In this document: positions 4,100-26,675 of the stretch, one piece after another
Layout of the letters: every line of letters begins with the position of its first letter
Numbering within the stretch: the first letter of the stretch is position 1
Origin: Synechococcales cyanobacterium GL140_1_metabat_312
Lineage (GTDB): Bacteria; Cyanobacteriota; Cyanobacteriia; Leptolyngbyales; Leptolyngbyaceae
DNA length: 64,000 bases
Direction of reading: 5' to 3'
Assembly: GCA_025351345.1 (NCBI GenBank)
Contig: JANXWB010000025.1
Location: forward strand, 1-64,000
Position numbers and translations under genes: made by a program
Notes under the pieces: generated by a model
The model's database searches: none
Told to the model about the DNA's origin: nothing
What the model saw: only the letters and a program-made list of their open reading frames with translations

Positions 4100-7000
4100 C
4101 TAATTGACCCGCACCCGGAATCGGAAGAACCCAACATTACCGGGACTTAGGTTTGTCAAGGTACCAAGTTGAACGATCGCAGCACCATTTGGATTACTGG
4201 GATTGCTGCACCCATTAGGCGCTGGCAGCGGGGCTAAAGACGGCAGGAAAGAACTCCGATCGGCATCGGATGCATTGGTTTGAATAGTGGTGGCGTTGTT
4301 GGCGCGCAGGGTAATTCCTTGCTGAGCACCAAAGCTATTGGGAACAAAAGTGGTGCCTGTGGGAATAAGATCACAAAGAGCCACATTTTGCGCAACAGAC
4401 TTACCATCGGAAAGAAAATAGACCGTGTATTCAGTTTCGTCACCACTGCGTAATGGGGTGAGTGCCGATAGTTCTAGCAATCCAAAAGGAGTAAGCCCAG
4501 CCGTTCTAATATCAGCACTATCCGTACTCTCTTCAATGTATTGATTAAAGCTCAGACCTGCGATCGTCACACCATTACGAGTGGCCCCCGTAATCCGTTT
4601 CACCAGTTTAAGTCTTGCCTCACCTGGTTCTTTCACCGTTAATAAATTCGGTTCATCATCGCCCGTATTTCCTGCAATGTTTCCTGTATCAGTTCCATCA
4701 TCTGGAATTTGGGGTTCATCTCTAGGTCCCGAAATAGCATCGGTTAAAGAGGGGTTAATGGGACCACTAGAAGCTGCGCTAGCTTGGTTTCTAATAATAG
4801 TGTTAGCGGGGGCAATAACAGTAGCGCGGAAAGTGATGGTGACAGAAGAGTTTGCAATCAGGGTTCCCGTTCCTGTCATCAAGAGATCGGTACTGCCATT
4901 GTAAGTCGGTCGAGCTGGGACAGTAGTGGTTGGGGCTGACTTGGCAAAGGTATAGCTGCCAGGGACAAAAGTAAGGTTTGCCGTGTCGATCGCATCGGTG
5001 ATTTGGAAATTATTAACATCAATGTTTGAAGTGTTTCTGTAGATAACTGTATATTCAACACCATCACCAATAGAAACAGATCCACTGCCATCTTTGTCAT
5101 CAACTAAACGAACAGATTTTGTTCCGAGTGGGTTGACTGGAGACACAATGTTGAGAATGGTTTCATCATCAGGGGCGAGATTCGGTTGAGCGACATTACC
5201 GTTGGCATCGGGGGTGCCAGAATTTCCGCCGGATCCGGGTGCTGATGGATTTGTACTATCACTGGCATCCGATCGGACAGGTGTACCCAAATCCCCTTTG
5301 AAATTTGCTAGGGCTTGGTTTGCGATCGGGCTAGCTGCACCGGGAAGGATTTTGGCGTTAAATGTAACGGTGATACTCGCGCCGGGGGCCAGGGTTGCAC
5401 TATTGGTAAGAGCGATCGGAGTCGTGCCATCACCGTTGAAATCAGCCGTAGGTAAAGTACTCGCGCGGACAAAGGGCGAACCCGTGACCGTGACTAGGTT
5501 AGCCGCGTCCGTCAGGAATCTCAATTGGGTGGGAATGGCATCACTGACGACGACATTTTGAATCGGGGCGACGGGGTTAGGGTTGCGCAGCACAATGGTG
5601 TATTGCACATCGTCGCCGGGAGTAAGCGTTCCTGAACCGTCGTTGTCTCGTAAGCGTCTGACGGATTTATTTAAGACAGGTTTCGGGCTGACTATGGTAA
5701 TGCCTGTGGGGTCAATTACCGACCCTGTGGGATAGACAGACTGGTTGACGGAGGTGTTTGGGATGCCTGATGTGGTGCCATCTCGGGTATCGGTGAGGAT
5801 GCCCCCTGTGGGGTAGTCCGGACTGCTAGAGGTTCCTTTGGCTTGATTAAATAGATCTCCCGTAGCCGTGCCGTTGATGGTGGCTTGGATCGTGACCGTA
5901 ATCGTTCCGTTTATACCCAAAACTGCACTTGCTGCCAACAAATTTGGAACCGTTTTGCCGTTGTAAGCCCCATTCACCGCCGCAATAGTTCCAGCTCCAG
6001 CAACAGCAACCGTCATACTGGCCGGGACAAAAGTGACATCTGGGGGAAGCGTATCGGCGATTTGGAATCCAGTAGCAGCGGCAGTTCCACTGTTGTTGTA
6101 AATGATGGTGTAGCGGATTCTGTCTCCGCCTGTCAGGGTTCCACTCCCATCTGTATCCGCAACCAACTCGACATACTTAACCGCGTTTGCTTGGGGGACA
6201 GAGCTGGGGATAATAATCACTTGGGTCGTTTGGGCCGCACTAGGAAAATAGGTCCAAAGATCTAGCCCCTTCGCATCCCCAAAGGAGCTATTACTATCAC
6301 AGGTTGCATTGCTGTTGCCGCCTGAGGCTTGGCCATAAGCTCTTGCTGACGTAGTGGAGTCATAGCCCGTTAGGGTGTTGCTGAAAATAGGATTTGGCAA
6401 GGCTCCAACAGTTGTTGGACAAAGGGGACCATTCAGAGAAGTCCCGACTGTTGCACCGTTTGCGGTAACATAGCCCCGATCGTCATAAAACGCTGTGGAT
6501 GCTGCAAACCCTAGCGCAAAGCTTCCTGGAGGATTAAGGACAGTAAGTGACGGACCACCAGTGGTATTATTCTCCGCATCTAGGAGTGGAAAGTGATATT
6601 CTCCGCCGCGAAGGCTAGCTCGTACAGGATAGTTAGGCTGAGTGGTATTGATAGGGAAAAATGTACCGTCATTGCGTTTCCCGTCCCACACAACAGTCTG
6701 CGCTCCGAAGGTCGTGAGTTGTCTCCGAATCGTGCGGTTGAGCGGATTGGTCGGGTCAAAATCCGTGCCATTGCTACTAATCACCAACTCGTAACTACCG
6801 GGAACATTGGTATTAAACGTGAATGTTCCACCCGTGTTTTCAGTACTGGTGGCGGCGGTGGCGGTTCCGGCAAATGCCAGGTTAGAGAGAACGGGCAGCG
6901 TGGGGGTTGTGGGAATGCCAAGGGCTTGGAGAACTGTTAAGTCAACTCTATTGAAGAAAAGAGGAAATTCGGGGCGGGCCATGGTTACGCCCCCTTGAAT

Positions 7001-7918
7001 CGTTTGGATTAGAGCGGGATTTGGCCCACCCACGACCCCGAGCGCATCGCGGTAAAGCGGAGTTCCATCAGTATTGAGAAAGCCCGATCGACTACCAAGT
7101 GCGACAAATCCATTGGGATCTAATCCTTTAAAGGCGGTTTGATACTGATAGCCATCCGTGGTGACGGGGAAAATGATGGAGTTGATAGGTCGTCCGTTGT
7201 CCCCAGTGAAGGCCGTGAGATAGTAAGTAAAAAGCCGCCCATTTTGATTTGTCGCCGCATTGTTAGCATCGGTTCGCACCGTCACATCCCAAGTGGATAT
7301 GCTAGAACCTTGCCCCCCATTAAAATTTCCGACATCATCCGCAATACTGCCTGTAACACCTCCGTCTCCAGTCGCCCCAAACCCACCCGGTCCCGTGAAA
7401 ACCACATCATAAACTCCATCACCACCTATGGGTACGAGGTAGGTACAGGGTGTATAGCCTCCTGCGGCTGGGGTCGGTCCAGCGAGTTCTTGGGCACGGG
7501 TAGCAATGAATCCTTTAACAGGTTGAGTGTTGCAGCTTAGGGTGGCAGACGCTGGGGCTGGTACAGTTTCGGCACCTATTGCTCCGGTGATAAGTCCAGG
7601 TCTGTAAAGCAGAATATCCCCAGTACCAACGCCAACGGCACTAGAACCGAGCAAAATTGTTTCGCCTGCTCTTGCATAAACTTTGAAGAGCGATCGTCTA
7701 ATTAATATTCCGCCATAACGTCCGTCACTTGCCGCCCGCCATTCAATGTTAGCGCGGGAACCCGTGGCACCCGATGGATAGAGGTCTTTGCTTCCTTCAG
7801 CATGGGCAGAGTTAGCGACACCTAGGATGCTACTGAGAATGGTAATAGAGGCTGCAAGTAGATGATTTTTAGAACGTTGCATCGATCGGACTTGAACAGG
7901 CTTGACAAAAAAACTCAT
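4100..7918 (-). CDS. Large exported DUF11-repeat protein, 1272 aa
   Basis: This is the last gene of a four-gene minus-strand operon. A signal peptide covers about residues 1-40 (cleavage near AHA). The N-terminal half (about 45-560) is beta-rich with no family I can name. Four DUF11-type beta-sandwich repeats follow at about 577-700, 747-870, 932-1050 and 1100-1272. The first three begin with a DxDGSG(T/S) loop followed by GD, resembling calcium-binding loops. Such repeats occur in adhesins and surface-layer-like proteins. There is no sortase, LPXTG or C-terminal anchor. The longest ORF starts at GTG 7927; ATG 7918 is chosen because AAGG lies 8 bases upstream. The gap to the preceding gene is 67 bases. 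Function is unknown; an exported adhesive or structural surface role is inferred. Confidence 0.75.
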   Translation of the reverse strand: MSFFVKPVQVRSMQRSKNHLLAASITILSSILGVANSAHAEGSKDLYPSGATGSRANIEWRAASDGRYGGILIRRSLFKVYARAGETILLGSSAVGVGTGDILLYRPGLITGAIGAETVPAPASATLSCNTQPVKGFIATRAQELAGPTPAAGGYTPCTYLVPIGGDGVYDVVFTGPGGFGATGDGGVTGSIADDVGNFNGGQGSSISTWDVTVRTDANNAATNQNGRLFTYYLTAFTGDNGRPINSIIFPVTTDGYQYQTAFKGLDPNGFVALGSRSGFLNTDGTPLYRDALGVVGGPNPALIQTIQGGVTMARPEFPLFFNRVDLTVLQALGIPTTPTLPVLSNLAFAGTATAATSTENTGGTFTFNTNVPGSYELVISSNGTDFDPTNPLNRTIRRQLTTFGAQTVVWDGKRNDGTFFPINTTQPNYPVRASLRGGEYHFPLLDAENNTTGGPSLTVLNPPGSFALGFAASTAFYDDRGYVTANGATVGTSLNGPLCPTTVGALPNPIFSNTLTGYDSTTSARAYGQASGGNSNATCDSNSSFGDAKGLDLWTYFPSAAQTTQVIIIPSSVPQANAVKYVELVADTDGSGTLTGGDRIRYTIIYNNSGTAAATGFQIADTLPPDVTFVPASMTVAVAGAGTIAAVNGAYNGKTVPNLLAASAVLGINGTITVTIQATINGTATGDLFNQAKGTSSSPDYPTGGILTDTRDGTTSGIPNTSVNQSVYPTGSVIDPTGITIVSPKPVLNKSVRRLRDNDGSGTLTPGDDVQYTIVLRNPNPVAPIQNVVVSDAIPTQLRFLTDAANLVTVTGSPFVRASTLPTADFNGDGTTPIALTNSATLAPGASITVTFNAKILPGAASPIANQALANFKGDLGTPVRSDASDSTNPSAPGSGGNSGTPDANGNVAQPNLAPDDETILNIVSPVNPLGTKSVRLVDDKDGSGSVSIGDGVEYTVIYRNTSNIDVNNFQITDAIDTANLTFVPGSYTFAKSAPTTTVPARPTYNGSTDLLMTGTGTLIANSSVTITFRATVIAPANTIIRNQASAASSGPINPSLTDAISGPRDEPQIPDDGTDTGNIAGNTGDDEPNLLTVKEPGEARLKLVKRITGATRNGVTIAGLSFNQYIEESTDSADIRTAGLTPFGLLELSALTPLRSGDETEYTVYFLSDGKSVAQNVALCDLIPTGTTFVPNSFGAQQGITLRANNATTIQTNASDADRSSFLPSLAPLPAPNGCSNPSNPNGAAIVQLGTLTNLSPGNVGFFRFRVRVN

Positions 7919-7985
7919 GGGATTCACCTTAACTCACAGTAAAAAATAAAATGTCAAACATTTACGATGTGAAACACTAACGTCA

Positions 7986-10028
7986 TCACTCCAGTTGTAA
8001 ATCACTCTCTTCGACTGTGAGTTCAAAGCCATCACTATCACGATAGATGATTTCTACTCTCCGATCGCGAGCATAATCAATTTTGGAATTGCCTTTTGCA
8101 ATGCGTTTGGTTTCGCCCAACGATCGTAATATCATCCGACTAGCGCTAATGCCTTGCCTTAGTAAATAGGTTCGGGCATTAGTTGCACGGCGCATTCCGA
8201 GCGCTTGGTTGTAATCGTTGTTTGCACGGGGGTCGGTGTGGCCTTCGAGTTCAATACTCACACCAGGATACTGATTTAGGACGGTAGCAATCCTGTTGAG
8301 AATTGTGGCACTCACAGGACTAATAAAGTCTTGGTCTAGGGCGAAATGAATTCGAGTCGGGGCTTTGAGCTTGATGGGAAGAACAGGCTGCGGAGTGATT
8401 ATGGGAGGATTTGGTGGAGTTGTACAGGCCGGAATCGCCGTAGGATTGCGAGTTGTTTTGACATCCTTCCAAGTCCCGATCGCAGCATTAATCGCGGGTT
8501 CCGAGGTTCCTTTTGTTGGATCGGTTGCCGTTGCACTAATCCGATCGCCCTTGCCCAATCCTGTAAGTTGCGCGGTGAATTTACCTTCTGCATCAGCCAT
8601 AACTTGTCCGATCGGTTGGCTTAAGGGTCCGCGATCGTCTTCCGTATTCAATTGAACTTTATAAAGTGCGATTTGGCTATTGGGTTCAGCGGTTCCAGTA
8701 ATCACATTAGCGTTTGTAAATTCATCCGTTGTAAATTCAGGGGAATCAATCGCAGCGTTGCCCGTTTCGAGATGGCGGTAACTCCCTTTGTGTTTTGGAT
8801 TGGGTCCATCTCCCGTTTGCCAAGCTTGCGCGTAGGTATTCTCTTGAGTGTTGAGATCAATGCTCATTCCTTCAAGAGTATCAAAGCGGTTATTAGCAAT
8901 TATGTTCCGATCGCTCTGAGGATACGCCCCAACGACAACCCCAGATCCCGATTGATGAGAGATTTGATTGTCTATCACTTCATGGCCGGAACCTGTAAGG
9001 TAGATAGCCGCTCGGCGGAGTCTGCGACCGTTGTATCGGATTTGATTATCACTGATTTTTACAGAACCGTTCGGTTTAAACAAATACACCCCTGCACCAT
9101 CATTTCCGCACATGAGATTGCCATGAATACGAGAACGATCGATATTGCCTTCGAGTCTAATTGCATCAGGCATTCCGGCGAGGCCATTATTAACAATAAT
9201 ATTTTCACTTACGTCAGTATTAGTCGCAGCGACACTCGTGATGATTGCGCTTCCATCATGAAACTCAATCCGATTTCGTCGAATTGTTGTGTTTTCACCC
9301 TGAAAGACCGATACCCCAAAGGCCGATGGTCGGTCCGTTTTACCGATCGGAGATATGCCCAACCAGTTGTTCTCAATAATGATATTTTTAGGCGGTATGT
9401 CATCGGGATAATAAGGGGCAAAATTTGCAGGCATTTTCTGCTTTTCAATGCTGGGCGGCGGGGTTGCATGGCTAATAAAAATATCGGCGGGCGGGGTCAT
9501 GGCGGTGGATTTGTGGGCGGCTGAAAACCCATGAATGCTTAACCCCCGAATGGTTACGCGATCGCTCACAATAGTCAATCCGCGCAACACATCCACATTC
9601 GCTGCCGGAATCAATTCAACAACGGGAATCGCAATGCTAATCTCTTGGGTTGCAGATTTGGTTGCGTCATAACCGGGTTGAGTAGTGCCGTCGATTGTGG
9701 TGCCGGGAATGGTAATTGATGGCAGTTCAGAGTTCAGGGCGATTTGGGTTTGTCCGGAGGGCAGATTGAAACCGATCGTGGAGGATTGAGATGCGGGGGT
9801 GACTTGCGATCGTTCGGCACTACTCAGATTTTCAAGTTTCAATTCACCATTAATCAATGCGATCGCTTCTCTGAGAGTTAAACCATTGTCAACCTTGATC
9901 TCGTCAGCGTTACTAGTTACAGTTGTTTTATAAAATGGAATTGGTTGCGAAATAGCTGATTGAGATAGTCCTAATAGCAACAAAATTTGAACAGTACTGA
10001 ATTGGTAGATGTATTTTGAGGTTTTCAT
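7986..10028 (-). CDS. Right-handed beta-helix protein with C-terminal OmpA domain
   Basis: This 680-aa protein has a signal peptide (residues 1-28, ending in QSAISQ). A segment at 48-58 (NGLTLREAIAL) resembles the CSLREAI motif of secreted beta-helix proteins. Parallel beta-helix rungs follow at about 150-395, with repeated N-x-I/N-x-R patterns, then a possible Ig-like segment (about 430-520), a Pro-rich linker, and an OmpA C-terminal domain at about 555-665 (IELEGHTDP, then LGMRRATNARTYL). OmpA domains bind peptidoglycan non-covalently, so the protein could tether surface material to the wall. A GGAGA ribosome binding site sits 7 bases before the ATG, and only 2 bases separate it from the barrel gene upstream. 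Substrate or ligand is unknown. Confidence 0.8.
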   Translation of the reverse strand: MKTSKYIYQFSTVQILLLLGLSQSAISQPIPFYKTTVTSNADEIKVDNGLTLREAIALINGELKLENLSSAERSQVTPASQSSTIGFNLPSGQTQIALNSELPSITIPGTTIDGTTQPGYDATKSATQEISIAIPVVELIPAANVDVLRGLTIVSDRVTIRGLSIHGFSAAHKSTAMTPPADIFISHATPPPSIEKQKMPANFAPYYPDDIPPKNIIIENNWLGISPIGKTDRPSAFGVSVFQGENTTIRRNRIEFHDGSAIITSVAATNTDVSENIIVNNGLAGMPDAIRLEGNIDRSRIHGNLMCGNDGAGVYLFKPNGSVKISDNQIRYNGRRLRRAAIYLTGSGHEVIDNQISHQSGSGVVVGAYPQSDRNIIANNRFDTLEGMSIDLNTQENTYAQAWQTGDGPNPKHKGSYRHLETGNAAIDSPEFTTDEFTNANVITGTAEPNSQIALYKVQLNTEDDRGPLSQPIGQVMADAEGKFTAQLTGLGKGDRISATATDPTKGTSEPAINAAIGTWKDVKTTRNPTAIPACTTPPNPPIITPQPVLPIKLKAPTRIHFALDQDFISPVSATILNRIATVLNQYPGVSIELEGHTDPRANNDYNQALGMRRATNARTYLLRQGISASRMILRSLGETKRIAKGNSKIDYARDRRVEIIYRDSDGFELTVEESDLQLE

Positions 10029-10030
10029 AA

Positions 10031-13000
10031 TTATTTCTCCATCGCGATCGGTTGAATTTTTGATTCTTGCTGTTGAGGCGGTGCGGTTTTTTGTAACCCA
10101 AACCCATCAAACAATTCATTCAACTTGAACTGTAAGCCAGCATAGAATCCACCCCGACTCCGATCGCCCACATCTGGGTCACTCGCTCGTCCAAAGCTGT
10201 AGCCCGCACCCACTCGAAGGTTTGGCGTGAGATAGTAGCCCGCTTCAAGCGCTAGCCCGATTTCATTAAATCCGGTGGTCGTTTGGGTGATGCTGCGAAT
10301 AGCTCCGACCGCATCCCACCGATCGTTAAAATGATAAGTCGTGCGAAGCTGGCTAAATAGAATAGTGTTGGAATTGATCAGATTGTTTGCGAGAGAAGAC
10401 TCGGTGCTCCGCAATCCCACTTTCCCATAGAATTCCCAACGCCAATTTGGGGCATAGATCGCTTCAGTAGAAAAGAGATGAATGTTTGCACCTGTTCCGG
10501 TCCCAAACAAAAGGGTATCGGGAATTGAGCTAGGATTTTTACGATATTCGTACCGCAAAAGCGCATTAAATTTATCGCTCTTCGGATCCCGGTACGCTAG
10601 ACCCAGCTTGAGATTTGACGTGTCACCCAAACCCACGACATTGCTGTAATTTGCTTGTTGATAGCGAAATAACGTTGTTAACGCAGGTGAAATTTTCCCA
10701 TTGACCGCAGCAGAGAACACAGTATTTGTCCCGACACTGGAAAAGCGATGTTCAAATCTGGTGCTGGCTTTGAAATTTGGATTGTCAGTGTAATCTAAAC
10801 CAATACTGTAACTATCTCCAGAGTTTGTCGCTAGTGATGCACCACTTTGTCCTACAGCGTAGGGCGTAATGAGTTGTTGTCCGGTTCCCGTGTAGGTGTA
10901 AATGTCACCAAAGATATGTTCATAAGCGAGGTTCATTCGCAGTCCCGGTGCAAGAATCATTCGATGATTTAAACCCAGTGCGCCTTGTCCCGTCAGACCA
11001 TTTACCCCATTTAATAACGAATACCGTCCGGTTACACTAGTGTCGTCAGTAAGCCGTTGATCCATTAAGGTATCCAAGCTTGTAATCGCACCCTGTCGAT
11101 AGGCTCCGCCTGTGAAAAACTGGTGCGCAAGTCGCATGGTGATTCCTGGCATCACAGCCCAATCTAGACCCACCGTGGTCCGATCGGGATACAAGAAGTC
11201 ACTATTACTACCCAGATTTAATTCATTCTGAGCGCGTAGGGTCAGAGATTTGGCGATCGGGAATGAGAATGATGAAACCAATTGACTACTGGAGTTATTC
11301 AGCAGACTAGAGCTATTGCGATCGCTCCGGGTTCGATTGACATAATCAACAGCGAGTTCTGCACTCCCAACCGTTTGGCTGAGTCCGGCTCGAAGGGTGG
11401 TTAGATTATTATCAACTCGGCTACCCGGAATCGGTTGTGCTTGAGGATTGAATAAATCAGTAAATCCAAGCACGCTACGATCGGCACTAGCAATTCCAAA
11501 ATTTTCCTCACGATCGAATTGGAGTTTAAGCCTTGTCCCTATGGCGATACTGCTAGCAACATCCACGCCATAGCGGGTTTGACCCGGATTAAAACTCAAG
11601 GTTCCAGTATTTGAAAAACCTTGATCCACTGTTCGATAATAGGCCCGCGCTAGAACTGACTCGCTGAGCTTGCCATTCACCTCAAATCGATAAGCTGTTC
11701 CAGATATGGCACCTTGATAGAGTGAATCATTGTTTGATTTTGAGATTTCTGCAATGATTTGGCCGCCATCACCCAAGGGAAAAATTGCATCTGCGCCATA
11801 CAGTTCAAAATTGCGTATGCCCTGACTTTCTTTCAAATAACTAGTTCCCAGCCAACTTTCACGCCCCAAAACCCGAGACAGATTGTACTGTAATCGCCCC
11901 GCATATAAACTTGCTTCATTGCCTTGAGAATCGGATTGATAGGTGACGACAATTTTACGGACCAACGATCGCCCGAACAAATCAAACTCCGTTCGCAACA
12001 TGGGTCGCCGGAAGAGGAATGCTCCCCGATCGTAATCAATCTCGTAGTCTGCGGTTCGAGTTAAACTTTTACGCTCAATCACTGTTCCAGGACGACCGAG
12101 TTCTTCAGTCTCAATGAATACATTTTCACTACCCGGTATGACCAATCGTTGAGACAAAAAGTAGTAGCCACTAGTTCCATCAGGGGCGATCGCATCTCGG
12201 CGGAAACTTTGTAAATTGTTGCCATACATAATGGTGGCTTGCAAATTGCCAAAATTATAATTAGCTTTCAATCCATGCAATTGACGCGTAGTTGCACTAT
12301 AAAGCTGGGAGGCTGTGGCAAATTCCTGAGAATTATAATCTCCCCACATCGCATAGTCAGTGCCCGCATTTGGAATAAGCGACTGACGTTCAGCTTTAAA
12401 ATAGACACTATCAATAGAGGGGGCTAAGTAGTCAACTTTTGAACTATCCCCAAATACCGGATAGACCTGATCGCAAGATTGGGTATCGCGAAATAGTCTA
12501 GAGTTTCCATCGCAGGTTTGATTTAAGGGCCGTTGATTATTGATTGCACCCGTAATCAACCAATCGCCGACTTTCCCGGTGGCAAAAACTGCCGTATCTA
12601 CATCTAGCCTTGTTCCTTCTGTCAATCGATCGGGATTGAGAAAGTCACGATAACTGCCAAAATAATCGGTTCCTGATGCACCAATGCGGACATTTATTAC
12701 TCCGGCCACAATGGGCGATCGTAAATCAGGAATAAATTCGACTTGAGTATAGGTGCTGATGTCTTGGAAATTAGTTGAAGCAGCGACAATGGCGTTGGGA
12801 TTATTTTGAGGGTTTGGTGCAATGGTGAAAGAAGCGTCTGGGGCAAGCGGTTTTGGCGTTAGACCAGGGTTTGGATCAGAGTCTAATAATTGCTTTGCGA
12901 TCGCGGCCCGAACTCGAACTTTTTTCGCCTCTAAATCTGATTGTAATTCTGCTGTAAATTTCCCACGAATCGCCAGCACCTGAAACCCCGGCAAATCTGT

Positions 13001-13375
13001 ATCTTGGTCTGCGCCAATGAATTTCCCGGCGCTACTGGTTAAGGTGACGATCGCCCGAGACGAGACTAATTGCCCTTCTTTATCTAGTAATCGCCCTTCA
13101 AATTTCACGGTCGATCGTCCATCAGCCGCAACCTGGGACGATCGTAGGGGAAGTAATTCTAATTGGGTTATTTCTGATTTCGCGGCCTGATTTATGGTTG
13201 TATTCGTCACGATCGGAGCAACGGTTTCAGCATTAGCCACTCCGATCGTTAAACTATTTGCAACAATATTAAAAATAGCAATTCCAAGCCCGATCGTACT
13301 CGTATTAGAACCAAATTTACTACCAGGTAAGATCTGTCTAGCCATTCGTATTTGCATTTGCATTAAGATTTTCAT
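10031..13375 (-). CDS. Outer-membrane beta-barrel protein with N-terminal Ig-like (Big_1-type) domain
   Basis: This 1114-aa protein has an N-terminal export signal (about residues 25-48, ending in VANA). Residues about 65-160 read like a bacterial Ig-like Big_1 domain: ADGRSTVKFEGRLLDKEGQ, then TLTSSAGKF, then a T/A-x-L strand. From about residue 215 to 1090 there are many alternating amphipathic strands with turns rich in N, D and G, typical of a large outer-membrane barrel; the last strand ends GGFYAGLQFKLNELF. A polar tail of about 25 residues follows. No TonB box or plug domain is evident, so a TonB-dependent receptor is not supported. It sits between the small DUF11 gene (5-base gap) and the OmpA gene (2-base gap). 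Likely role: export pore or surface anchor for its partners; this is inference. Confidence 0.75.
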   Translation of the reverse strand: MKILMQMQIRMARQILPGSKFGSNTSTIGLGIAIFNIVANSLTIGVANAETVAPIVTNTTINQAAKSEITQLELLPLRSSQVAADGRSTVKFEGRLLDKEGQLVSSRAIVTLTSSAGKFIGADQDTDLPGFQVLAIRGKFTAELQSDLEAKKVRVRAAIAKQLLDSDPNPGLTPKPLAPDASFTIAPNPQNNPNAIVAASTNFQDISTYTQVEFIPDLRSPIVAGVINVRIGASGTDYFGSYRDFLNPDRLTEGTRLDVDTAVFATGKVGDWLITGAINNQRPLNQTCDGNSRLFRDTQSCDQVYPVFGDSSKVDYLAPSIDSVYFKAERQSLIPNAGTDYAMWGDYNSQEFATASQLYSATTRQLHGLKANYNFGNLQATIMYGNNLQSFRRDAIAPDGTSGYYFLSQRLVIPGSENVFIETEELGRPGTVIERKSLTRTADYEIDYDRGAFLFRRPMLRTEFDLFGRSLVRKIVVTYQSDSQGNEASLYAGRLQYNLSRVLGRESWLGTSYLKESQGIRNFELYGADAIFPLGDGGQIIAEISKSNNDSLYQGAISGTAYRFEVNGKLSESVLARAYYRTVDQGFSNTGTLSFNPGQTRYGVDVASSIAIGTRLKLQFDREENFGIASADRSVLGFTDLFNPQAQPIPGSRVDNNLTTLRAGLSQTVGSAELAVDYVNRTRSDRNSSSLLNNSSSQLVSSFSFPIAKSLTLRAQNELNLGSNSDFLYPDRTTVGLDWAVMPGITMRLAHQFFTGGAYRQGAITSLDTLMDQRLTDDTSVTGRYSLLNGVNGLTGQGALGLNHRMILAPGLRMNLAYEHIFGDIYTYTGTGQQLITPYAVGQSGASLATNSGDSYSIGLDYTDNPNFKASTRFEHRFSSVGTNTVFSAAVNGKISPALTTLFRYQQANYSNVVGLGDTSNLKLGLAYRDPKSDKFNALLRYEYRKNPSSIPDTLLFGTGTGANIHLFSTEAIYAPNWRWEFYGKVGLRSTESSLANNLINSNTILFSQLRTTYHFNDRWDAVGAIRSITQTTTGFNEIGLALEAGYYLTPNLRVGAGYSFGRASDPDVGDRSRGGFYAGLQFKLNELFDGFGLQKTAPPQQQESKIQPIAMEK

Positions 13376-13380
13376 AGTAA

Positions 13381-14346
13381 CTAGCGCACTCCCTCCCGAT
13401 AAGTTGGCGTAACCGCAAAATTCATTCTGGCCATCCCACTTGGCTCTAGACGCACCGATCGGGATGTACTATTTTTGTCAATTCGGTATAAATTTGGAGC
13501 TAGGGTATACCCCGGTAAACTAGTCAGGTCAAGGGTTCCGGTATGATATCCAGCAAGTACAAAGGGCAATGAATACAATCCATCAGCATCAGTCATGACG
13601 CGATTCCCATCTTCTAAAATGACCACCGCATTAGGAATCCCCGGTTCTCCGGGCTGTTGCTCTCCATCAAAGTTACGATCCTCAAACACCCGGCCAATTA
13701 GTGTTCCACAATCAGAAACAATCCCTGCTTGAACTAGAACTCGGTGACTAGCAATGTTGCTATTTACCGAACCACTCGGCGATAACCCAAATGCAATGGC
13801 GCTATTTCGCCCCGTACCCCGCACCGCATCAGGACTAGTCAATGCAGCATAGGCAATAATCAAAGATTGCTGAGGTTGTAATTCTGGATACTTAAAGGTG
13901 ATAACAGATCCCGAAACCGTTGCTGTAATTGGTGACGGAGTGGTGATGGGGGTTCCGGCGGCATTTGCGATCGCACCCACGGGCGACTTGGCCAAAAATT
14001 TGAACCCCAGCGGTAATGTGTCCTTAATACTCAAGTCTGTAATAGTTGCAGTCCCCGTATTGCGAATCTGCAACCGATAACTAATCGCATCACCCGGTTC
14101 TATGCTAGCGCGATCGCCAATTTTAATTATTTCTAAAGCCGCAGTTCCACCTTGAACTGGAATTTTTACAGTATTGGAAGAGATAGACTTCGGCGGTTTC
14201 CCAGGGCTATTAAATTCAGCCGTCGCTGTATTCGGAATGATTGTAGAGGTCGATTGAGCAACAGCCGGAAGAGAAATTCCGCAGATACTCATGACTAAAA
14301 GTCCCCCTAACCAGAACGGGGATTGCATTGAATTCACGCTTACCAT
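13381..14346 (-). CDS. Exported DUF11 plus SdrD-B-like domain protein
   Basis: First gene of the surface-protein operon, 321 aa. A signal peptide spans residues 1-30 (ending LPAVAQ). A DUF11 domain occupies about 70-190 (DRASIEPGDAISYRLQIRNTG, LSIKDTLPLGFKFL). An SdrD-B/Cna-B-like domain covers about 215-300, with the diagnostic GRVFEDRNFDGEQQPGEPGI and MTDADGLYSLP motifs. Both are beta-sandwich modules of surface proteins; the second often binds calcium. There is no membrane anchor, so it is probably secreted or held by a partner such as the neighbouring barrel protein. The ATG at 14346 has a poor ribosome binding site; an in-frame ATG at 14328 is an alternative. An imperfect palindrome lies about 75 bases upstream. 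Confidence 0.75.
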   Translation of the reverse strand: MVSVNSMQSPFWLGGLLVMSICGISLPAVAQSTSTIIPNTATAEFNSPGKPPKSISSNTVKIPVQGGTAALEIIKIGDRASIEPGDAISYRLQIRNTGTATITDLSIKDTLPLGFKFLAKSPVGAIANAAGTPITTPSPITATVSGSVITFKYPELQPQQSLIIAYAALTSPDAVRGTGRNSAIAFGLSPSGSVNSNIASHRVLVQAGIVSDCGTLIGRVFEDRNFDGEQQPGEPGIPNAVVILEDGNRVMTDADGLYSLPFVLAGYHTGTLDLTSLPGYTLAPNLYRIDKNSTSRSVRLEPSGMARMNFAVTPTYREGVR

Positions 14347-18335: not shown

Positions 18336-19565
18336 ATGCGTAACCCTAGCCTCACTATTTTCTATCAATTCAACCCCTGGAATAGTACGATCGGCGGCAT
18401 TCAAACCGTCATCCGATCGTTCATTAAATACGCTCCAGAAGACTTCAATCTTCAACTGGTAGGAACGGGCGACGCAAGGAAAATGAAGATCGGCAAGTGG
18501 CATGACGAAATATTCGCAGGCAAAAAACTACGCTTTCTCCCAGTATTGGATTTGCCAGAAGATAATGTGCGAGGCCGAATTCCCACCACCGTTAAGTACA
18601 CCGCTGCCTTAATGTCCCACCGAATCGAGTCGGACTTCATGCATTTCCATCGCCTAGAGCCAACCTTGGCCGCAAAAGGCTGGAGCGGAGACAAGACCTT
18701 TTTCGTACACAACGATATTCATCAGCAAATGGCAGCGAAAGATGGCAAAAATGCGATTCTATGGCGACGGTTTCCGAAAGCCTATTTCACCCTAGAAGGC
18801 TGGCTCGTGAAGCAATTTGACGAAATCCTCTCTTGCAATTCTGAATCCGTCAGCCTCTACCAGCAGCAATATCCAGATTTGGCCCATCGAGTCTCCTTCA
18901 TCCGCAATACCGTCGATACAGAAGTCTGCAAGCCGCTTAGTGAAAACGATCGATCGGTCGCTCGGCGGAACTTCTCTCGAGAGCATGCCCTACCCGAAAC
19001 CACTCAGTATGTATTGTTCGCAGGACGGCTTCACCCTCAAAAAGACCCGCTATTGCTAGCCAAAACCATTGCAGCCCTTCAGGATCCTCAAGTTCATCTA
19101 CTGGTCGCTGGAGATGGAGAACTGGCCCCAGAGCTAAAAGCTGAAATTCTCCGCCTGAATCTATCGGCTCAAGTCACACTGTTGGGGGCCGTTAATTCAG
19201 TTAACCTCGTCAGACTGTACCAAATCGCCAATGCTTTAATCCTGACGAGCGAATTTGAAGGATTACCTTTAGTTGCATTAGAAGCACTGGCCTGCGGTAC
19301 GCCCATTGTGACGACAAGATGCGGCGAAACTCCAAAATTTCTCACCCCTCAGAGCGGCATGATTAGCGACGATCGGACCCCTGAAGCCATTGCCCGTGCG
19401 CTAAATCAAGTGATATCCAATCCGGACCACTATCCCCAAACTGCATGTGTTCGAGTTGCCGAACCATATAGTGCCCGTAAGGTTGTCGGCCAAGTTTACG
19501 AATCTATGCTTCACCGATGGCGTAACCAACAGCATGGACAACGGCAAACTCCGATCGCTGCATAA
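18336..19565 (+). CDS. Glycosyltransferase, GT4 family
   Basis: This 409-aa protein has the GT-B fold of GT4 enzymes. The C-terminal nucleotide-sugar half starts near residue 225 (YVLFAGRLHPQKDPLLLAK), and the EX7E signature is EFEGLPLVALEALACGTP near residue 305. The N-terminal half contains GGIQTVIRSF, the acceptor-side glycine motif, and HFHRLEP. It would transfer a sugar to a lipid-linked intermediate at the inner face of the cytoplasmic membrane. Donor and acceptor cannot be told from sequence. It is the first gene of the exopolysaccharide cluster, 81 bases upstream of a second GT4 gene. Confidence 0.88.
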   Translation: MRNPSLTIFYQFNPWNSTIGGIQTVIRSFIKYAPEDFNLQLVGTGDARKMKIGKWHDEIFAGKKLRFLPVLDLPEDNVRGRIPTTVKYTAALMSHRIESDFMHFHRLEPTLAAKGWSGDKTFFVHNDIHQQMAAKDGKNAILWRRFPKAYFTLEGWLVKQFDEILSCNSESVSLYQQQYPDLAHRVSFIRNTVDTEVCKPLSENDRSVARRNFSREHALPETTQYVLFAGRLHPQKDPLLLAKTIAALQDPQVHLLVAGDGELAPELKAEILRLNLSAQVTLLGAVNSVNLVRLYQIANALILTSEFEGLPLVALEALACGTPIVTTRCGETPKFLTPQSGMISDDRTPEAIARALNQVISNPDHYPQTACVRVAEPYSARKVVGQVYESMLHRWRNQQHGQRQTPIAA

Positions 19566-19646
19566 CAGCCATAACGTCTGCATAACACTCGAATTTCTGT
19601 ATTTACTCATCTTACTTACCACTTACCTACTAGGACACAGTTGATC

Positions 19647-20804
19647 ATGAAAATTGCAGTCATCGGCGCTAAAGGTCTTCCTCCCAAACAAGGTGGCATT
19701 GAACACTATTGCGCAGGCGTTTACCCTCGTATGGTCGCGCAGGGTCATGAGGTGGATTTATTTGGCCGATCGTCCTACACTGAGTCCCCAGCATTCCATT
19801 GTGATGACTTCCAAGGCGTACGGACAATCTCCATGCCATCGTTAGGAATGCGCGGAATGGATGCCTTTGTTGGCTCTGCAATGGGCGCGTTGATGGCCAG
19901 CCGCAAGCATTACGACATTATTCATTTCCATGCCCTTGGCCCATCATTATTCACCTGTCTCCCCAAGCTAGCCACCCGCAGCAAAATTGTTGTTACCTGC
20001 CAAGGACTCGACTGGCAGCGCGATAAGTGGGGCAAGCTTCCCAGCCGATTGATCCGTCTTGGAGAACAAGCTGCTGCGAAATATGCAGATGGTCTGGTCG
20101 TGGTGTCCGACGACCTCCGTCAATACTTCCAACGCACCTACTCCCGCGATGCAACGTACATTCCCAATGCACCTGGAACTTATGCAGCATCTGATTCTAG
20201 CTTTGCTTTTGGCAAGTCTCTAGGTCTCGAACAAGGCAAATACATGATCTATCTCGGTCGTTTGGTGCCTGAAAAATGCCCCGATTTATTAATTCAAGCC
20301 TTCCGTAAACTCAAAAATACAGGCTGGAAATTAGTACTCGTCGGCGGGACTAGCGACACTAATGGCTTTACTTCCGAGCTTCAAGCGCTCTCCCAAGGGT
20401 CCTCGGACATCGTGTTTACTGGCGAATTGCAAGGTGCACGACTCGCTGAAATTGTCCGTGGTGCTGGGCTATTTACCTTACCTTCTAACCTAGAAGGCTT
20501 ACCGCTTGCCATGCTTGAGGGAATGCAAGAAGGTCTACCTGTCGTCGCCAGCAACATCCCACCCCACCGCCAATTGATTGGTGACGATCGCGGACTATTG
20601 TTCCAAGCTGGAGATATTGATTCCTGCGTTGCGGCATTAACTTGGGCCATCGATCATCCCGGTGAAATGCGCAGCATGGGCGATCGTGGACAACATCATG
20701 TCAAGTCCTATTACACCTGGGACCAGATCACCCGCGACAACTTAAATCTCTACAAGTCTCTCATCAGCACCAAGGTGAATCAAAAAGTCGCGGTTACTGC
20801 ATAA
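19647..20804 (+). CDS. Glycosyltransferase, GT4 family
   Basis: The 385-aa product is a second GT4 enzyme. It starts MKIAVIGAKGLPPKQGGIEHY, a glycine-rich opening common in exopolysaccharide GT4s. The catalytic half begins near residue 190 (YMIYLGRLVPEKCPDLLIQAF) and has the EX7E signature in LEGLPLAMLEGMQEGLP. It probably acts after the upstream glycosyltransferase in building the repeat unit of a secreted polysaccharide. The longest ORF uses a TTG at 19641; the ATG at 19647 gives the canonical N-terminus. About 210 bases separate it from the Wzc-like gene, including a weak hairpin. Confidence 0.88.
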   Translation: MKIAVIGAKGLPPKQGGIEHYCAGVYPRMVAQGHEVDLFGRSSYTESPAFHCDDFQGVRTISMPSLGMRGMDAFVGSAMGALMASRKHYDIIHFHALGPSLFTCLPKLATRSKIVVTCQGLDWQRDKWGKLPSRLIRLGEQAAAKYADGLVVVSDDLRQYFQRTYSRDATYIPNAPGTYAASDSSFAFGKSLGLEQGKYMIYLGRLVPEKCPDLLIQAFRKLKNTGWKLVLVGGTSDTNGFTSELQALSQGSSDIVFTGELQGARLAEIVRGAGLFTLPSNLEGLPLAMLEGMQEGLPVVASNIPPHRQLIGDDRGLLFQAGDIDSCVAALTWAIDHPGEMRSMGDRGQHHVKSYYTWDQITRDNLNLYKSLISTKVNQKVAVTA

Positions 20805-20808
20805 TAAG

Positions 20809-20833
20809 AACCAGAATTAAGAAAATTTTGGTT
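20809..20833 (+). terminator. Weak hairpin after second GT4 gene
   Basis: AACCAGAATT and AATTTTGGTT pair over 10 bp with one G-U, around a 5-base loop, 5 bases after the glycosyltransferase stop. No T-run follows, so it may be a weak or partial terminator or a mRNA-stabilising hairpin. Confidence 0.3.
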
Positions 20834-21017
20834 AATAGTGTCCTATAAACGTTGCAGTATGGAGATAAAAGGCTAGTTGTCTAATCTATCTCCCAATGAA
20901 TTCTCCTAGTGCATTACCAAGTCAGCGAATTCTCTTTTCTTGCACGAAATACATACAACCATCGTTAAGACCAGGAAATCCTAGTCTTTAACCCTCCACC
21001 CCAGTGGTTTACCCGAA

Positions 21018-23144
21018 ATGCCCCAGTTTTCTCCCGCTCTTCTGAAACGTCACGCCTTACCTGTTTGCATGACTCTCTGTGCGGCGATCGGGGCAGCACT
21101 TTTCTATGGGCAAAAAGCACCTCGTAGCTATGAGTCATCCGCCCGGCTAGTATTGGACGATCGAACCCGTAGTATCTCTGAACTAGGCCGAAATTTAACA
21201 AAACTGCCTGATAATGTACCCGGTGGATCCACAGCGATCGCAACCCAAGCTGAGCTAATTAAATCTGAAGGAGTTCTAAGACGGGCCTTAGCCGCCATGT
21301 TACCCCCTGGTCAGAGCGAGGATCGCAGTCGCAAATTAACCGTTATGGATCTGAGTCGGGCGCTGAAGGTCAAGATTCTGCCTGCGACCAACCTGTTAGA
21401 TGTTTCTTATCAGAATAATGATCCTGAACTGGTCGCTAAAGTATTGAACGCTGTAGCAGACGCAACGGTTAAAGAAGACGCTAACTCTATTCGACGGGAA
21501 GCCTCGACAGTCCGTGAATTTCTAGAGAAAAATGTTCCAGTTCAGCAATCTCAAGTCCTTGAGGCCGAGGCAATTGAAAGTCGCTACCGTCAAGACACCG
21601 GGGCTGTCGCCTTAGAAAACCAAACCCAAAGTCTGGTGACTAGCCTTGCAGATGTAGAAAATCAAGAACGAACCGTCGTGGCGCAGTTGCGAGAGTCGGC
21701 AACAAAAGGAGCCTTGGTTCAACAAGTCACAGGGGTAAATAATCCCGGAACTGCCTATGCTGCAACCCGTGTGGGACAAGACGAGCAGCTTAAAGCTATA
21801 AGACTTCGCTTAGCGGAAATTGAAATTAAAGTCAACGAAACCCGATCGCGCCTAGGCGATCAACATCCTGACTTATTGGCCGTGATCGAACAGCGCAACG
21901 AAATGCAAAAATCTTACAATGCACGAGTGGCAGAAGTGTTGCCAGATGGCCAAAACCAGCCGCAAGCAAGCCAATCCGCTACCGATGAAGTGAGTAAAGG
22001 TATTCTGTCTCAGTACATCACTGGAGAAATCGATCGGACGGCTCTTGAACAAAAACTGAAAACACTACAAACCGCCAAAGCTGATCTGCAAAGCCGAATT
22101 GCCCAGATTCCAGAAAAACAACAGGGGCTATCCGCCGTCACCCGTCAACGCGAAGAGAAATCATTGTCCCTTAAGGGCATTCAAACCAAACTCGAAGAAG
22201 CTCGGATTGCAGAAGCTCAGTTGATTAGTAATATTCGGGTACTCGATCGGGCCGAAGTTCCCACCAAACCATCCTCTCCTCAGCAGACTGTAATTATGGC
22301 TGTAGCGATCGCAGCGGGCCTAGTTTTAGCGATCGGACTGTCATTGTTATTAGAATTGCTGGACAACACATTGCGAGATCCAAAAGAACTTCCTGGCCTA
22401 ACAGATATTCCAATTTTAGGTAAATTGCCGAAGCTTCCCTTTAAGCCAACTTACGCGCGGCTGGACCAATTTCTCGATATGCCGAACCTAGTAGAACCTT
22501 ACCGGATGCTACTTAAAGCGCTCGATCGTCGCCTTGTCCAACGCCCAAAAATTATTTTGGTGAGCAGCGTTATGGAAGGCGAAGGTAAATCTAACTTAGT
22601 CGCGTATCTTGGGGCCGTGGCGGCGAGCTTATCCTATCGAACTTTAGTAATTGATACGGATTGCGCTCAGGCAATGCAACATACATTGTTGGGCGTTTCG
22701 GCGACACCAGGATTTTCCAATGCGATCGTCAACAGGGCTGAGTTTAAGGATGTTGTTAAATCAACGGCGATTGAGAACCTATTCATCATGCCCTACGGAG
22801 AACTACCCAAACGTCCTGCCACCATCATGGAATCCACGGCGTTACCCAAGCTGTTGGAGACTATCGGGAATGAGTTTGATTTAGTCCTTGTGGATACGTC
22901 GGTGTTGAGCCGTAGTGTTGATGCCGTTACGCTCCATCCGTATGTAGGCGGCATGATTATCTCGACACGCCCAGACCATACGCGTCGGGATATTTTGAAA
23001 CAGCTTTTATTAGATTTAAAAGATGCTCAAATTGAACCTTTGGGTCTTGTCGTCAATCACAATGTAGATACACCATCTCACGAAATTCCACCTATGTTGC
23101 GATCGACATCCCGTACTGATCACTCTGTTTCACCTATTTTGTAG
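21018..23144 (+). CDS. Wzc/Wzz-like polysaccharide co-polymerase with divergent tyrosine-kinase domain
   Basis: This 708-aa protein has the PCP-2a layout: membrane helix 1 (about 13-30), a Wzz domain with long helical coils (about 160-410), membrane helix 2 (about 424-446) with the following Pro-Leu-rich entry to the kinase (LPGLTDIPILGKLPK), then a BY-kinase domain (510-680). The kinase motifs are eroded: Walker A reads SSVMEGEGKSN (516-526; Lys and Ser kept), Walker A' keeps DxD but lacks the usual Arg, and Walker B reads LVLVDTS rather than DxPP. There is no C-terminal tyrosine cluster. It probably controls chain length and export of exopolysaccharide with the Wza-like protein downstream; kinase activity is doubtful. 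Confidence 0.85.
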   Translation: MPQFSPALLKRHALPVCMTLCAAIGAALFYGQKAPRSYESSARLVLDDRTRSISELGRNLTKLPDNVPGGSTAIATQAELIKSEGVLRRALAAMLPPGQSEDRSRKLTVMDLSRALKVKILPATNLLDVSYQNNDPELVAKVLNAVADATVKEDANSIRREASTVREFLEKNVPVQQSQVLEAEAIESRYRQDTGAVALENQTQSLVTSLADVENQERTVVAQLRESATKGALVQQVTGVNNPGTAYAATRVGQDEQLKAIRLRLAEIEIKVNETRSRLGDQHPDLLAVIEQRNEMQKSYNARVAEVLPDGQNQPQASQSATDEVSKGILSQYITGEIDRTALEQKLKTLQTAKADLQSRIAQIPEKQQGLSAVTRQREEKSLSLKGIQTKLEEARIAEAQLISNIRVLDRAEVPTKPSSPQQTVIMAVAIAAGLVLAIGLSLLLELLDNTLRDPKELPGLTDIPILGKLPKLPFKPTYARLDQFLDMPNLVEPYRMLLKALDRRLVQRPKIILVSSVMEGEGKSNLVAYLGAVAASLSYRTLVIDTDCAQAMQHTLLGVSATPGFSNAIVNRAEFKDVVKSTAIENLFIMPYGELPKRPATIMESTALPKLLETIGNEFDLVLVDTSVLSRSVDAVTLHPYVGGMIISTRPDHTRRDILKQLLLDLKDAQIEPLGLVVNHNVDTPSHEIPPMLRSTSRTDHSVSPIL

Positions 23145-23213
23145 ATTTATTTGTTCTAAATCTATTTGTTCTAAATCTATTGTCCTGAATCTGTTCTTCT
23201 AAATTTTTATACT

Positions 23214-24392
23214 ATGAAATTTCAACTTGCTGCGAGTTACGGACTATTTTTTCTAAGTACGATCACCCCCACGATCGCCGCTCCAATCCCTTCAGAATTA
23301 TCAACGCCGTCACCCACTCCGTCGTCAACTCCGCCGTCAATTCTACCGACTGTCAGCCCATCAATTACTCCTACTTTTTCAACCGATACAAGCAGTCCAT
23401 TACCCGCGAGTGCGACGACAGTAATCAAGTCAATAAAGTCAGGAATAAATTCGGGGCAACTCAGTGATGTGATTCCATTAAAGTCAGGCGATCGGATTCG
23501 GTTGACAGTTGTGGGCTTTCCCGACATGACCGGAGAGCAAATCATTCTTTCCGACGGAACCATTCAACTCCCTCTGGCTGGATCTATTCCGATCGCAGGA
23601 CTCACACCGGGGTCGGCCAGTACCGCCATCATAAACTCACTTCAGCCCTACGTTCGTCGTCCCCAAGTCAGCATTGTCGTGTTGGCCCTCAGTCCGTTAC
23701 GGGTCAATGTAATTGGAGAAGTGCTTCAGCCCGGACCACGGACTTTAGAACCCACTAAAAATCAAACCAGTAGCTATGGCTTACCCACCATTTCGCCTAT
23801 TACTCTGAGCGATGCTGTCAACATTGCCGGGGGAATTACACCGAATGCAGACCTGCGAAATGTGATCATTCGACGAACAACCGTCCAGTCCCCAGGTCCC
23901 GGTGAGCCTTTGGTGGCCATGCGATCGGATGTGAAAGTAGATCTGTGGCAAGTATTACAAAGCGGCGACCTAGATGCGGATCCACGGCTCAACTACGGTG
24001 ACGAAATTTTAATTCCTACTGCATTAATTAGCACTCCAGAACAACAAGCCTTACTCAAATCAACCTTTGCCCCCACTCGAATTCGGGTACAGGTGGCGGG
24101 GGAAGTGCAGCGGGCGGGCCAAGTGGAAGTCTCGGCAAATTCGGGAGTGAGTCAAGCGATCGCAGCAGCAGGCGGCCCAACGCGAGATGCGAAAAGTCGT
24201 GACATTGTGCTCTATCGCACGAGTCCTGAGGGTCGAGTTGAATCTCAGAAATTTGACTTTGGCAAAGACTCCATTGCCTTACGGGACGGCGATCTAATTG
24301 TGGTCGGCCAAACTGGAAGTAGCAAAATCCTGGACTTCTTAGGGAAACTAATTTCACCCCTTAGCCCGTTCATCAACCTCATTCGTTTTTAG
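23214..24392 (+). CDS. Polysaccharide export protein, Wza-like (Poly_export and SLBB domains)
   Basis: The 392-aa protein has a signal peptide (residues 1-22) and a long Pro/Ser/Thr-rich linker (about 25-85). A polysaccharide-export domain follows at about 88-165 (LKSGDRIRLTVVGFPDMTG), then two SLBB-type beta-grasp segments (about 168-250, LRVNVIGEVLQPG; and about 285-365, IRVQVAGEVQRAG). Near the C-terminus is a short hydrophobic stretch. Wza-type proteins form the outer-membrane channel that works with Wzc-like co-polymerases. No lipobox Cys is seen, which departs from enteric Wza. It lies 69 bases downstream of the co-polymerase gene and 8 bases upstream of the polymerase/ligase gene, supporting one transcription unit. 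Confidence 0.85.
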   Translation: MKFQLAASYGLFFLSTITPTIAAPIPSELSTPSPTPSSTPPSILPTVSPSITPTFSTDTSSPLPASATTVIKSIKSGINSGQLSDVIPLKSGDRIRLTVVGFPDMTGEQIILSDGTIQLPLAGSIPIAGLTPGSASTAIINSLQPYVRRPQVSIVVLALSPLRVNVIGEVLQPGPRTLEPTKNQTSSYGLPTISPITLSDAVNIAGGITPNADLRNVIIRRTTVQSPGPGEPLVAMRSDVKVDLWQVLQSGDLDADPRLNYGDEILIPTALISTPEQQALLKSTFAPTRIRVQVAGEVQRAGQVEVSANSGVSQAIAAAGGPTRDAKSRDIVLYRTSPEGRVESQKFDFGKDSIALRDGDLIVVGQTGSSKILDFLGKLISPLSPFINLIRF

Positions 24393-24400
24393 GCCCAGTC

Positions 24401-25882
24401 ATGTACACCGAGCATTCCTCAAAACCTGCGGCAATTTGGCTTCCCTGGCTAATTACAATAGTGGGATTAGTTGTAGGGACTGGACTGGGGCTAGCTTCTG
24501 GTGCGCAGCCGTTGCTGTTGGGCGGTGCGATCGGCGCAATTTTATTTGTCATGACCTTCTTTTTAAAATTTGAAGTAGTGGTCATTGGACTATTGATTTT
24601 GAGAACGGCGATCGATTGTTTTGTGACGCTTCAATTACCAACCGTGTTTGCGATCGGGATCGATGCTCTAACCATTCTGTATTTGATTGTTCAATTATTT
24701 CGACGACAGACGATTCAAACGGATTGGTTTTTTTGGTGGTTTTTCGGGTGGTGGCTTTTTCAAGGACTATGGCTTGTGCTGATGGTTTTAGGCGGACTAG
24801 GATTGGGAGCTGGCTTTTTAGCCGATAGTATTCGGGAATGGATTCGTATTTTTTCGTGGGTCGTAGCGTACTTCTTAGCCATGCAAATGAAAGGGAAAAT
24901 TAAACCGAGAACTTTTATCTATGGATTGTTCTGGTCTTTGGTTGCGCCCTTGACTGTGGCGGTAATACAAATCATTGCACCGAACGTATTGCCGGGAGAT
25001 TTAAATCTCAATGGAAGTAGTATGCAAGGAATGGACGGGCCAGCGTCTGAAGGAGCCAGAATCCGAGGGACTCTCGGCCATCCAAACTCATTTGTCACCT
25101 ATACCTTTATGTTTATGTCCTTAACTCAGTGGCGATTGTCTCAGGAAAAAAATAAGTTATTTTGGGGAATATTACTCGGCTTACTGGCTTTTTTCTTCGT
25201 TAGTGCTAAGGCGCTTTATAGCTTGATGATGTTGGCCGTTTTAATTTTAGTCTTGATCGCCCCTCGATTGAGTATTTTGAAAATGGTCGGCGGGATTATC
25301 TTTTTTATATTAATAATTTCACTGTTCGGAAGTACTGAATTTGGCCAGGAACGCCTTGGCTCGATCGGAAAAACACCCTTACTTAATCCTGATATTGACG
25401 TTACCCGTGCCATTTTGCTTTCAAAAGGAGACAATAACAGTTTTAATTGGCGGATTGCTCAGTGGTATCAACTGCTGGGGGAATTCAACCTATTTCCTTG
25501 GTTTGGGTATGGTTTAGGCGTAAGTATTAAAATCAGCACAAATAATCTTCTTCCCCACAATGATTATGTTCGAGCGTTGGTGGAAGGCGGTGTCGTTGGG
25601 TTTGCAAGCTTTATGAGCTTCATGACGATGCAGATAGTAAGACTAGTACAGCTTTGGCGGAATGCTTGGAATAACTCAGTACAACGGGGATTTTGTTTGG
25701 CATTATTAGCAATCTTTATGGCCTTACCCGCTGCAATGTTGACAGAAAACATTTGGACCCATACGATGCTATTTTTCTATCTTTATACATTCATGGCGAT
25801 CGCAGGATGGGATTGGTCGGAGACGAATGAGCCGGGTAGTCAAGTCAAGACTCCTCGTGTTTTAGGCCAAAATAGAATCTGA
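24401..25882 (+). CDS. O-antigen ligase/polymerase family membrane protein (Wzy-like)
   Basis: This 493-aa protein has about 11-12 hydrophobic helices spread along its length. It has the features of the O-antigen ligase/polymerase family: a large periplasmic loop before the last helices, a conserved GHPNSF near residue 230 and [15 protein letters not shown] near residue 385. Members either polymerise repeat units (Wzy) or ligate polysaccharide to an acceptor (WaaL). Position between Wza-like and flippase genes favours a Wzy role in exopolysaccharide synthesis. The ATG follows the export gene stop by 8 bases. Codon use and composition look like the neighbours. Confidence 0.82.
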
Positions 25883-25959
25883 GATTTTTACTTCTTAATG
25901 TATTCATTCTGAAACAACGCTCACGATTGTTCAACATCACAGGGAGTAAACAAAATTTT

Positions 25960-26523: not shown

Positions 26524-26610
26524 GTAATATCCCTATTTAGATTCTCTTTAGGTTTCTACAGATCAATAGGAAGCTTCAAGTTAATATGTCGGTTACATTA
26601 GACTAGTACT

Positions 26611-26652: not shown

Positions 26653-26675
26653 CCCTCACATTATTTTTACTTCTT

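Follow-up and report, generated by a model that had tools for sequence, protein, structure and literature searches.

A conserved four-gene set of cyanobacteria that may build a surface fibre joined through a split DUF11 domain

Four adjacent genes of a cyanobacterium, all of them with apparent signal peptides, raise the question of whether their products act together in one surface structure and, if so, of how the parts are held to each other. The window, that is, the whole stretch of DNA analysed, is cyanobacterial: it comprises 64,000 nucleotides from an assembly that totals 3.85 Mb over 100 contigs, and the genomes most closely related to it come from uncultured cyanobacteria. A sequence-only reading had placed four neighbouring genes on the minus strand of this window and had inferred a joint surface assembly from them. 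The arrangement itself is borne out, since all four frames are open at the coordinates given below and the N-termini of A, B, C and D are all signal-peptide-like (judged by eye). The length given for D (1272 aa) and the gap before it (67 bases) are right for a start at ATG; from a GTG three codons earlier, D has 1275 aa and the C/D gap is 58 bases, the other gaps being 5 bases (A/B) and 2 bases (B/C). The genes and their parts are as follows:

13381-14346, minus strand: gene A, 321 aa; signal peptide, putative N-terminal donor hairpin, one complete DUF11 domain and an SdrD_B-like domain
14155-14241, minus strand: A residues 36-64 (IIPNTATAEF...SNTVKIPV), proposed donor hairpin equivalent to the last two DUF11 strands, with Asn39 at the isopeptide Asn position
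13732-14136, minus strand: A residues 71-205, complete DUF11 domain (Pfam DUF11, 5.5e-08)
13399-13692, minus strand: A residues 219-316, SdrD_B-like domain, proposed dock on B (Pfam SdrD_B, 1.6e-05, under the Pfam curated cut-off)
10031-13375, minus strand: gene B, 1114 aa; Ig-like domain and very large predicted outer-membrane barrel
12896-13177, minus strand: B residues 67-160, Ig-like (Big_1-like) domain (weak Big_1 match and model)
10112-12763, minus strand: B residues 205-1088, predicted barrel (structure model)
11972-12217, minus strand: B residues 387-468, small beta-domain inserted after strand 8 (conservation; own model)
7986-10028, minus strand: gene C, 680 aa; right-handed beta-helix, Big_6 and OmpA
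8067-8345, minus strand: C residues 562-654, OmpA peptidoglycan-binding domain (Pfam OmpA, 4.8e-15)
4100-7927, minus strand: gene D, 1275 aa from GTG; N-terminal region and DUF11 stalk
4103-4615, minus strand: D residues 1105-1275, last DUF11 domain, proposed acceptor; Lys1110 and the Asp of CDLIP kept, ending GFFRFRVRVN without the last two strands

The DUF11 family has been renamed CLIPPER; in the crystal structure of such a domain (9IFR), a Lys-Asn bond joins the first strand to the last but one, and an Asp lies close by (PMC12617251). In the window, the DUF11 and SdrD_B assignments of A and the beta-helix, Big_6 and OmpA assignments of C come from Pfam/NCBIfam, and residues 71-205 of A also match the CLIPPER crystal structure 9ifr in a profile comparison (E 5e-06). 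Protein D contains four DUF11 stretches (Pfam, 1.8e-20), three of which also match the isopeptide-forming TIGR04226 (6.6e-23), and it meets the tandem-DUF11 exported-protein criterion of the DUF11/CLIPPER fibrillar adhesins. The OmpA domain of C has the Asp and Arg of peptidoglycan binding (GHTDPR...LGMRRA), as read from the motif and without binding data. The flanking genes, for a DUF3598/BFA1 protein on one side and a metallophosphatase and MutL on the other, are unrelated to the set. Elsewhere in the window, positions 18336-27965 look, by sequence reading only, like an exopolysaccharide gene cluster, with two glycosyltransferase-like proteins and a Wzc-like protein of 708 aa.

The linkage of the four genes was counted in 58 related genomes. 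B is found in 45 of them, A and D in 44 each and C in 33, and none of the 13 genomes without B carries A, C or D. Matches of A lie within 2 kb of B and on the same strand in 66 of 69 cases, those of C within 3 kb and on the same strand in 37 of 39, and those of D within 12 kb in 63 of 83; the unlinked A and C matches sit on other contigs of draft assemblies, and a few D copies are truly solo, with no A or B nearby (e.g. in L135). Since the genomes are related, the Fisher values for co-occurrence (4e-12 for A and D) treat them as more independent than they are; the linkage pattern is nevertheless plain despite this kinship, and the counts establish A, B, C and D as a real conserved unit, beyond chance. 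Homologues routinely found apart, which would have refuted the earlier reading, are therefore not what these genomes contain. C is the least constant member, missing from a quarter of the B-positive genomes (present in 33/45).

Moreover, among some 110 loci from cyanobacteria, A lies before B in almost all of those with flanking sequence, and C and D usually follow. Two kinds of cluster can be distinguished: type I, as in the window, has the order A (~320 aa)-B-C-D, and type II the order X (~870 aa)-Y (~190 aa)-A (~520 aa)-B, followed by C and/or D. The source genome carries both types. It holds two further copies of the set: that on contig C46 has additional DUF11 proteins upstream, and that on contig C45 is degenerate. 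All DUF11 matches of the genome fall within these two loci and the window. In the C45 copy (L044, 22000-30798), B extends over two frames and stops ~400 residues short of its end, and D is likewise broken; an assembly error is possible. In another genome, with two B loci elsewhere, a satellite X-Y-D group without A or B nearby has been observed (L134; G026 contig C1, 497000-511000).

Relatives of B were also found by tblastn in plasmid records of Acinetobacter, Vibrio, Eleftheria, Sinorhizobium, Loktanella and others, several of them annotated as TonB receptors; none was found in phage genomes. The A, B and C profiles were run on eight of these plasmid-record loci. A is fused to B in Acinetobacter and Pacificitalea, the SdrD_B-like domain joining B directly; a giant DUF11 protein ending in an A module, with B directly after it, is encoded in five Proteobacteria, Loktanella, Pelagibacterium, Sinorhizobium, Vibrio and Eleftheria; and OmpA is fused to B in a Picosynechococcus plasmid and in Eleftheria. 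Given these A-B, D-A and OmpA-B fusions, components encoded separately in the window occur elsewhere joined in one polypeptide. In the Acinetobacter plasmid cluster, the X-like gene (L126:2630-5464) seems to be broken into several short frames.

The nature of B is less readily assigned. Pfam assigns it no family at the cut-off and gives just a weak match to Big_1 (residues 79-159), and the profile of B finds no chain among the solved structures at E up to 1. A model built from an alignment of 77 sequences (mean pLDDT 72, pTM 0.68) predicts an Ig-like domain, a disordered linker and about 40 barrel strands, interrupted after the eighth strand by an insert of 80 residues. With moderate confidence, and on the strength of this model, B may be taken as one very large barrel of ~40 strands; on structural re-alignment, the alignments to porins take in both its first and its last strand, which suggests that the modelled barrel closes. 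Among the re-aligned structures the FimD ushers come first (Z 15.9), with maltoporin, a porin, at 14.8; as the latter is only about one Z unit behind, the FimD match of the model is generic and no evidence of kinship. The Ig-like domain resembles those of beta-galactosidases (Z ~14, structure comparison). The insert (387-468) shows the strongest conservation within B, is conserved in the proteobacterial relatives too and, modelled alone, resembles the N-terminal domain of the T7 tail fibre gp17 (Z 7.6 over 70 residues, rmsd 2.9); it is possibly a plug. A conserved tail, NELFxGFGxQKxAPPQQQES, follows the last strand at the C-terminus of B (window 10031-10121).

Several identities have been considered for B and set aside. 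No TonB receptor or plug family matches B or six of its relatives (Pfam; relatives at E up to 0.1), for which reason a TonB receptor is rejected; together with the ~40-strand model, this also removes the other outcome that would have refuted the sequence-only reading, namely a barrel modelling as such a receptor with its plug. An intimin/invasin-like protein is rejected as well, since the Ig-like domain precedes the barrel instead of following it, and the barrel far exceeds those of such proteins in size. The usher family PF00577 has no match in B (Pfam, E up to 1) or in the six relatives (E up to 0.1), no PapD-type chaperone family is found by Pfam in the four genes or in three scanned neighbours, and no type V (autotransporter) barrel family appears in the Pfam scan. 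The insert is not claimed to be an usher plug, as the T7 tail-fibre domains rank first for its own model. Convincing kinship of B or of its insert to solved structures was not obtained, the matches to alginate lyase and UvrB (E >0.2) looking like chance.

Beyond what the earlier reading contained, the ends of the DUF11 proteins point to a split domain that would link D to A. In an alignment of 30 relatives, the C-termini of D end in GF-x-RFR-x-K/R-V plus one residue, which corresponds to the strand before the Asn strand, and those of X (FTFQRKVN) and Y (YQTQVR) stop at the same point of the domain. The secreted N-termini of A and X, in turn, carry the pattern I-x-NTATA-x-F/Y ... SNTV-x-V, equivalent to the Asn strand and the last strand, and this donor hairpin pattern is present in 27 of the 27 type I A sequences listed. 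Positions were assigned with a complete-domain model of 131 positions, made from internal complete domains with the A sequences excluded; it replaced an earlier profile that was dominated by A sequences and too narrow. On this model, the C-termini of D, X and Y match from about 10 to 79-90, and the N-termini of A and X from about 94 to 125-127. By a fixed criterion, donor-like N-termini occur in 73 of 100 A, in 41 of 41 X and in only 6 of 705 other proteins; the X figure is partly circular, as X was picked by a motif in the same stretch, whereas A was picked by its C-terminus. The same rule for the termini is also valid in Acinetobacter and Pacificitalea.

The residues of the isopeptide triad are distributed accordingly in the alignments. 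Complete internal domains usually have the full Lys-Asp-Asn triad, and the last domain of D is without the Asn strand; no bond has been observed. All 71 D sequences retain the acceptor Asp, and at least 90% of the 30 aligned D C-termini retain the Lys. In Y, a single truncated DUF11 domain of ~190 aa, the Asp position is occupied by Gln in 47 of 48 sequences (L043:3287-3829 and 47 relatives). Furthermore, rejoined forms occur naturally. In four proteobacterial giants, the acceptor strand is followed by a short linker, an NTA-type hairpin and the A module without a break, so that these read as one unsplit domain where the window has a gene boundary. A protein of 2110 aa from a related cyanobacterial genome has an X C-terminus (GTFIFQREVN) followed, after six residues, by an X donor hairpin (VINNEAAATYEDL...), as would be expected for head-to-tail X-X joining. 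This fusion is without the Lys and Y is without the Asp, from which it follows that a covalent bond is not universal. The D and A ends can be regarded as complementary, as judged from alignments and profile positions.

From these elements, a strand-complemented surface fibre is proposed, in which D is held by A, A sits on B, and C reaches the peptidoglycan; we hold this scheme to be probable, with considerable room for error, and binding, the covalent bond, export through B and an adhesive function are all inferred, no model of a complex being at hand. D would form the exposed stalk and tip, its N-terminal region being followed by the DUF11 (CLIPPER) domains. The last of these, lacking its two final strands, would be filled by the N-terminus of A once the signal peptide has been removed, by donor-strand complementation, and the joint may then lock through a Lys-Asn bond, since the acceptor keeps the Lys and Asp and the donor carries the Asn of the CLIPPER triad. 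A would be the base subunit, its SdrD_B half docking on B, as suggested by the A-B fusions. B would anchor the fibre in the outer membrane and may also be its exit, and C, with its beta-helix and OmpA domain, would tie the complex to the peptidoglycan. In related clusters, X, with a donor N-terminus and an acceptor C-terminus, could polymerise between A and D, and Y, which only accepts, could cap donors without crosslinking them because its Asp is absent, possibly as a cap or chaperone.

The linkage, the fusions, the incomplete C-terminal domain, the donor N-terminus and the rejoined forms are read from the genomes and their alignments. The joint surface assembly proposed earlier gains support from the linkage, the non-TonB barrel model and the A-B, D-A and B-OmpA fusions, and its physical existence remains an inference. 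A more far-reaching version would see here an undescribed class of outer-membrane fibres, common to Cyanobacteria and Proteobacteria, with two-strand donation to a split CLIPPER domain, a spontaneous Lys-Asn lock, export and anchoring by a ~40-strand barrel among the largest single-chain ones known, and the inactivated Y as a reversible cap; taken as a whole, this is possible and tentative, and the balance leans against it.

The proposed fibre has to be weighed against other ways of reading the same genes. The four proteins could form a surface complex in which the last domain of D completes itself through its long insertion, the hairpin of A being used otherwise (packing on B or on A itself) and the parts meeting through ordinary surface contacts. 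All acceptor domains do have a long insertion or enlarged loop between the first strand and the PGD motif, which might complete the fold internally, and joining the D and A ends brings no gain in profile score (median change -1.8 bits), with the end of the match extended from position 78 to 116; linkage and fusions would fit such a complex equally well. What it leaves unaccounted for is that D, X and Y stop at the same domain point and that A and X begin with the missing piece, and also that the natural D-A and X-X fusions bring both pieces together, so that we regard self-completion as unlikely without dismissing it.

The two remaining explanations turn on B. It could be mainly a secretion pore for D and X, usher- or autotransporter-like, with A as an adaptor that starts export and anchoring as a secondary function: the modelled barrel is wide enough, the inserted domain could plug it, the FimD ushers head the re-aligned structures, and the A-B fusions put the passenger before the barrel, in an autotransporter-like order. 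The porins, however, come close enough to make the usher match generic, the insert alone is like phage tail-fibre domains and not like an usher plug, and the scans gave no usher, PapD chaperone or autotransporter family match, all of which renders a pore of this kind quite improbable. That B should be an uptake channel or receptor, with A, C and D as independent surface proteins sharing its operon, finds its support in the annotation of some B relatives as TonB-dependent receptors, yet neither B nor its relatives contain a TonB receptor or plug family, the A-B and B-OmpA fusions tie the parts together, and A and D never occur in the sampled genomes without B; this last possibility is held to be very remote.

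If the proposed fibre is real, it would explain the cell-surface retention of many Gram-negative "DUF11" surface proteins and assign a function to a barrel family that is widespread and for the most part without a name. It would also provide a natural counterpart to the engineered split isopeptide tags and a candidate fibre system for filamentous cyanobacteria that is accessible to simple gene deletions. As regards novelty, strand complementation is known from chaperone-usher pili and from archaeal threads with a proposed inter-subunit bond (PMC9715654), and CLIPPER is known as a stalk domain. No description of a split CLIPPER domain with this barrel, or of this gene set, was found in the papers searched, all of them open-access. 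The gene set is best placed among the strand-complemented surface fibres, as a variant of these, and it stands a fair chance of forming a separate class.

Among known systems, the DUF11/CLIPPER adhesins (PMC12617251, 9IFR) share the domain family of D and A, and the solved example also combines a Gram-negative stalk with an OmpA anchor, there in the same chain; unlike the proposed joint, its domain is complete and its bond lies within one chain. The text of the CLIPPER survey (PMC12617251) does not mention donor strands or split domains. In the threads of Sulfolobus (Saci_0406), subunits are joined head-to-tail by donor-strand complementation, with a proposed inter-subunit isopeptide bond; that bond, however, connects the N-terminal amino group to an Asn two subunits away (PMC9715654), there is no outer membrane or barrel, and no sequence relation to the present set has been shown. 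The chaperone-usher pili (type 1 and P, with FimD/PapC) are alike in their incomplete Ig-like subunits and N-terminal donor strand, here inferred from sequence only and in another domain family, as well as in the logic that leads from a base to a tip adhesin and in an outer-membrane barrel with a small inserted domain. They differ in that the present set is without a PapD chaperone or usher family, has DUF11/CLIPPER subunits and an OmpA partner, lacks two strands in the acceptor instead of one, and has a modelled barrel of ~40 strands against 24. SpyTag/SpyCatcher is an engineered split of a CnaB isopeptide domain whose two pieces rejoin covalently; the split considered here would be natural and would affect a CnaA-like domain, and its covalent step is unproven. 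Finally, the type IX translocon SprA, whose solved barrel has 36 strands, is likewise a very large single-chain barrel and stands among the generic structural matches of B.
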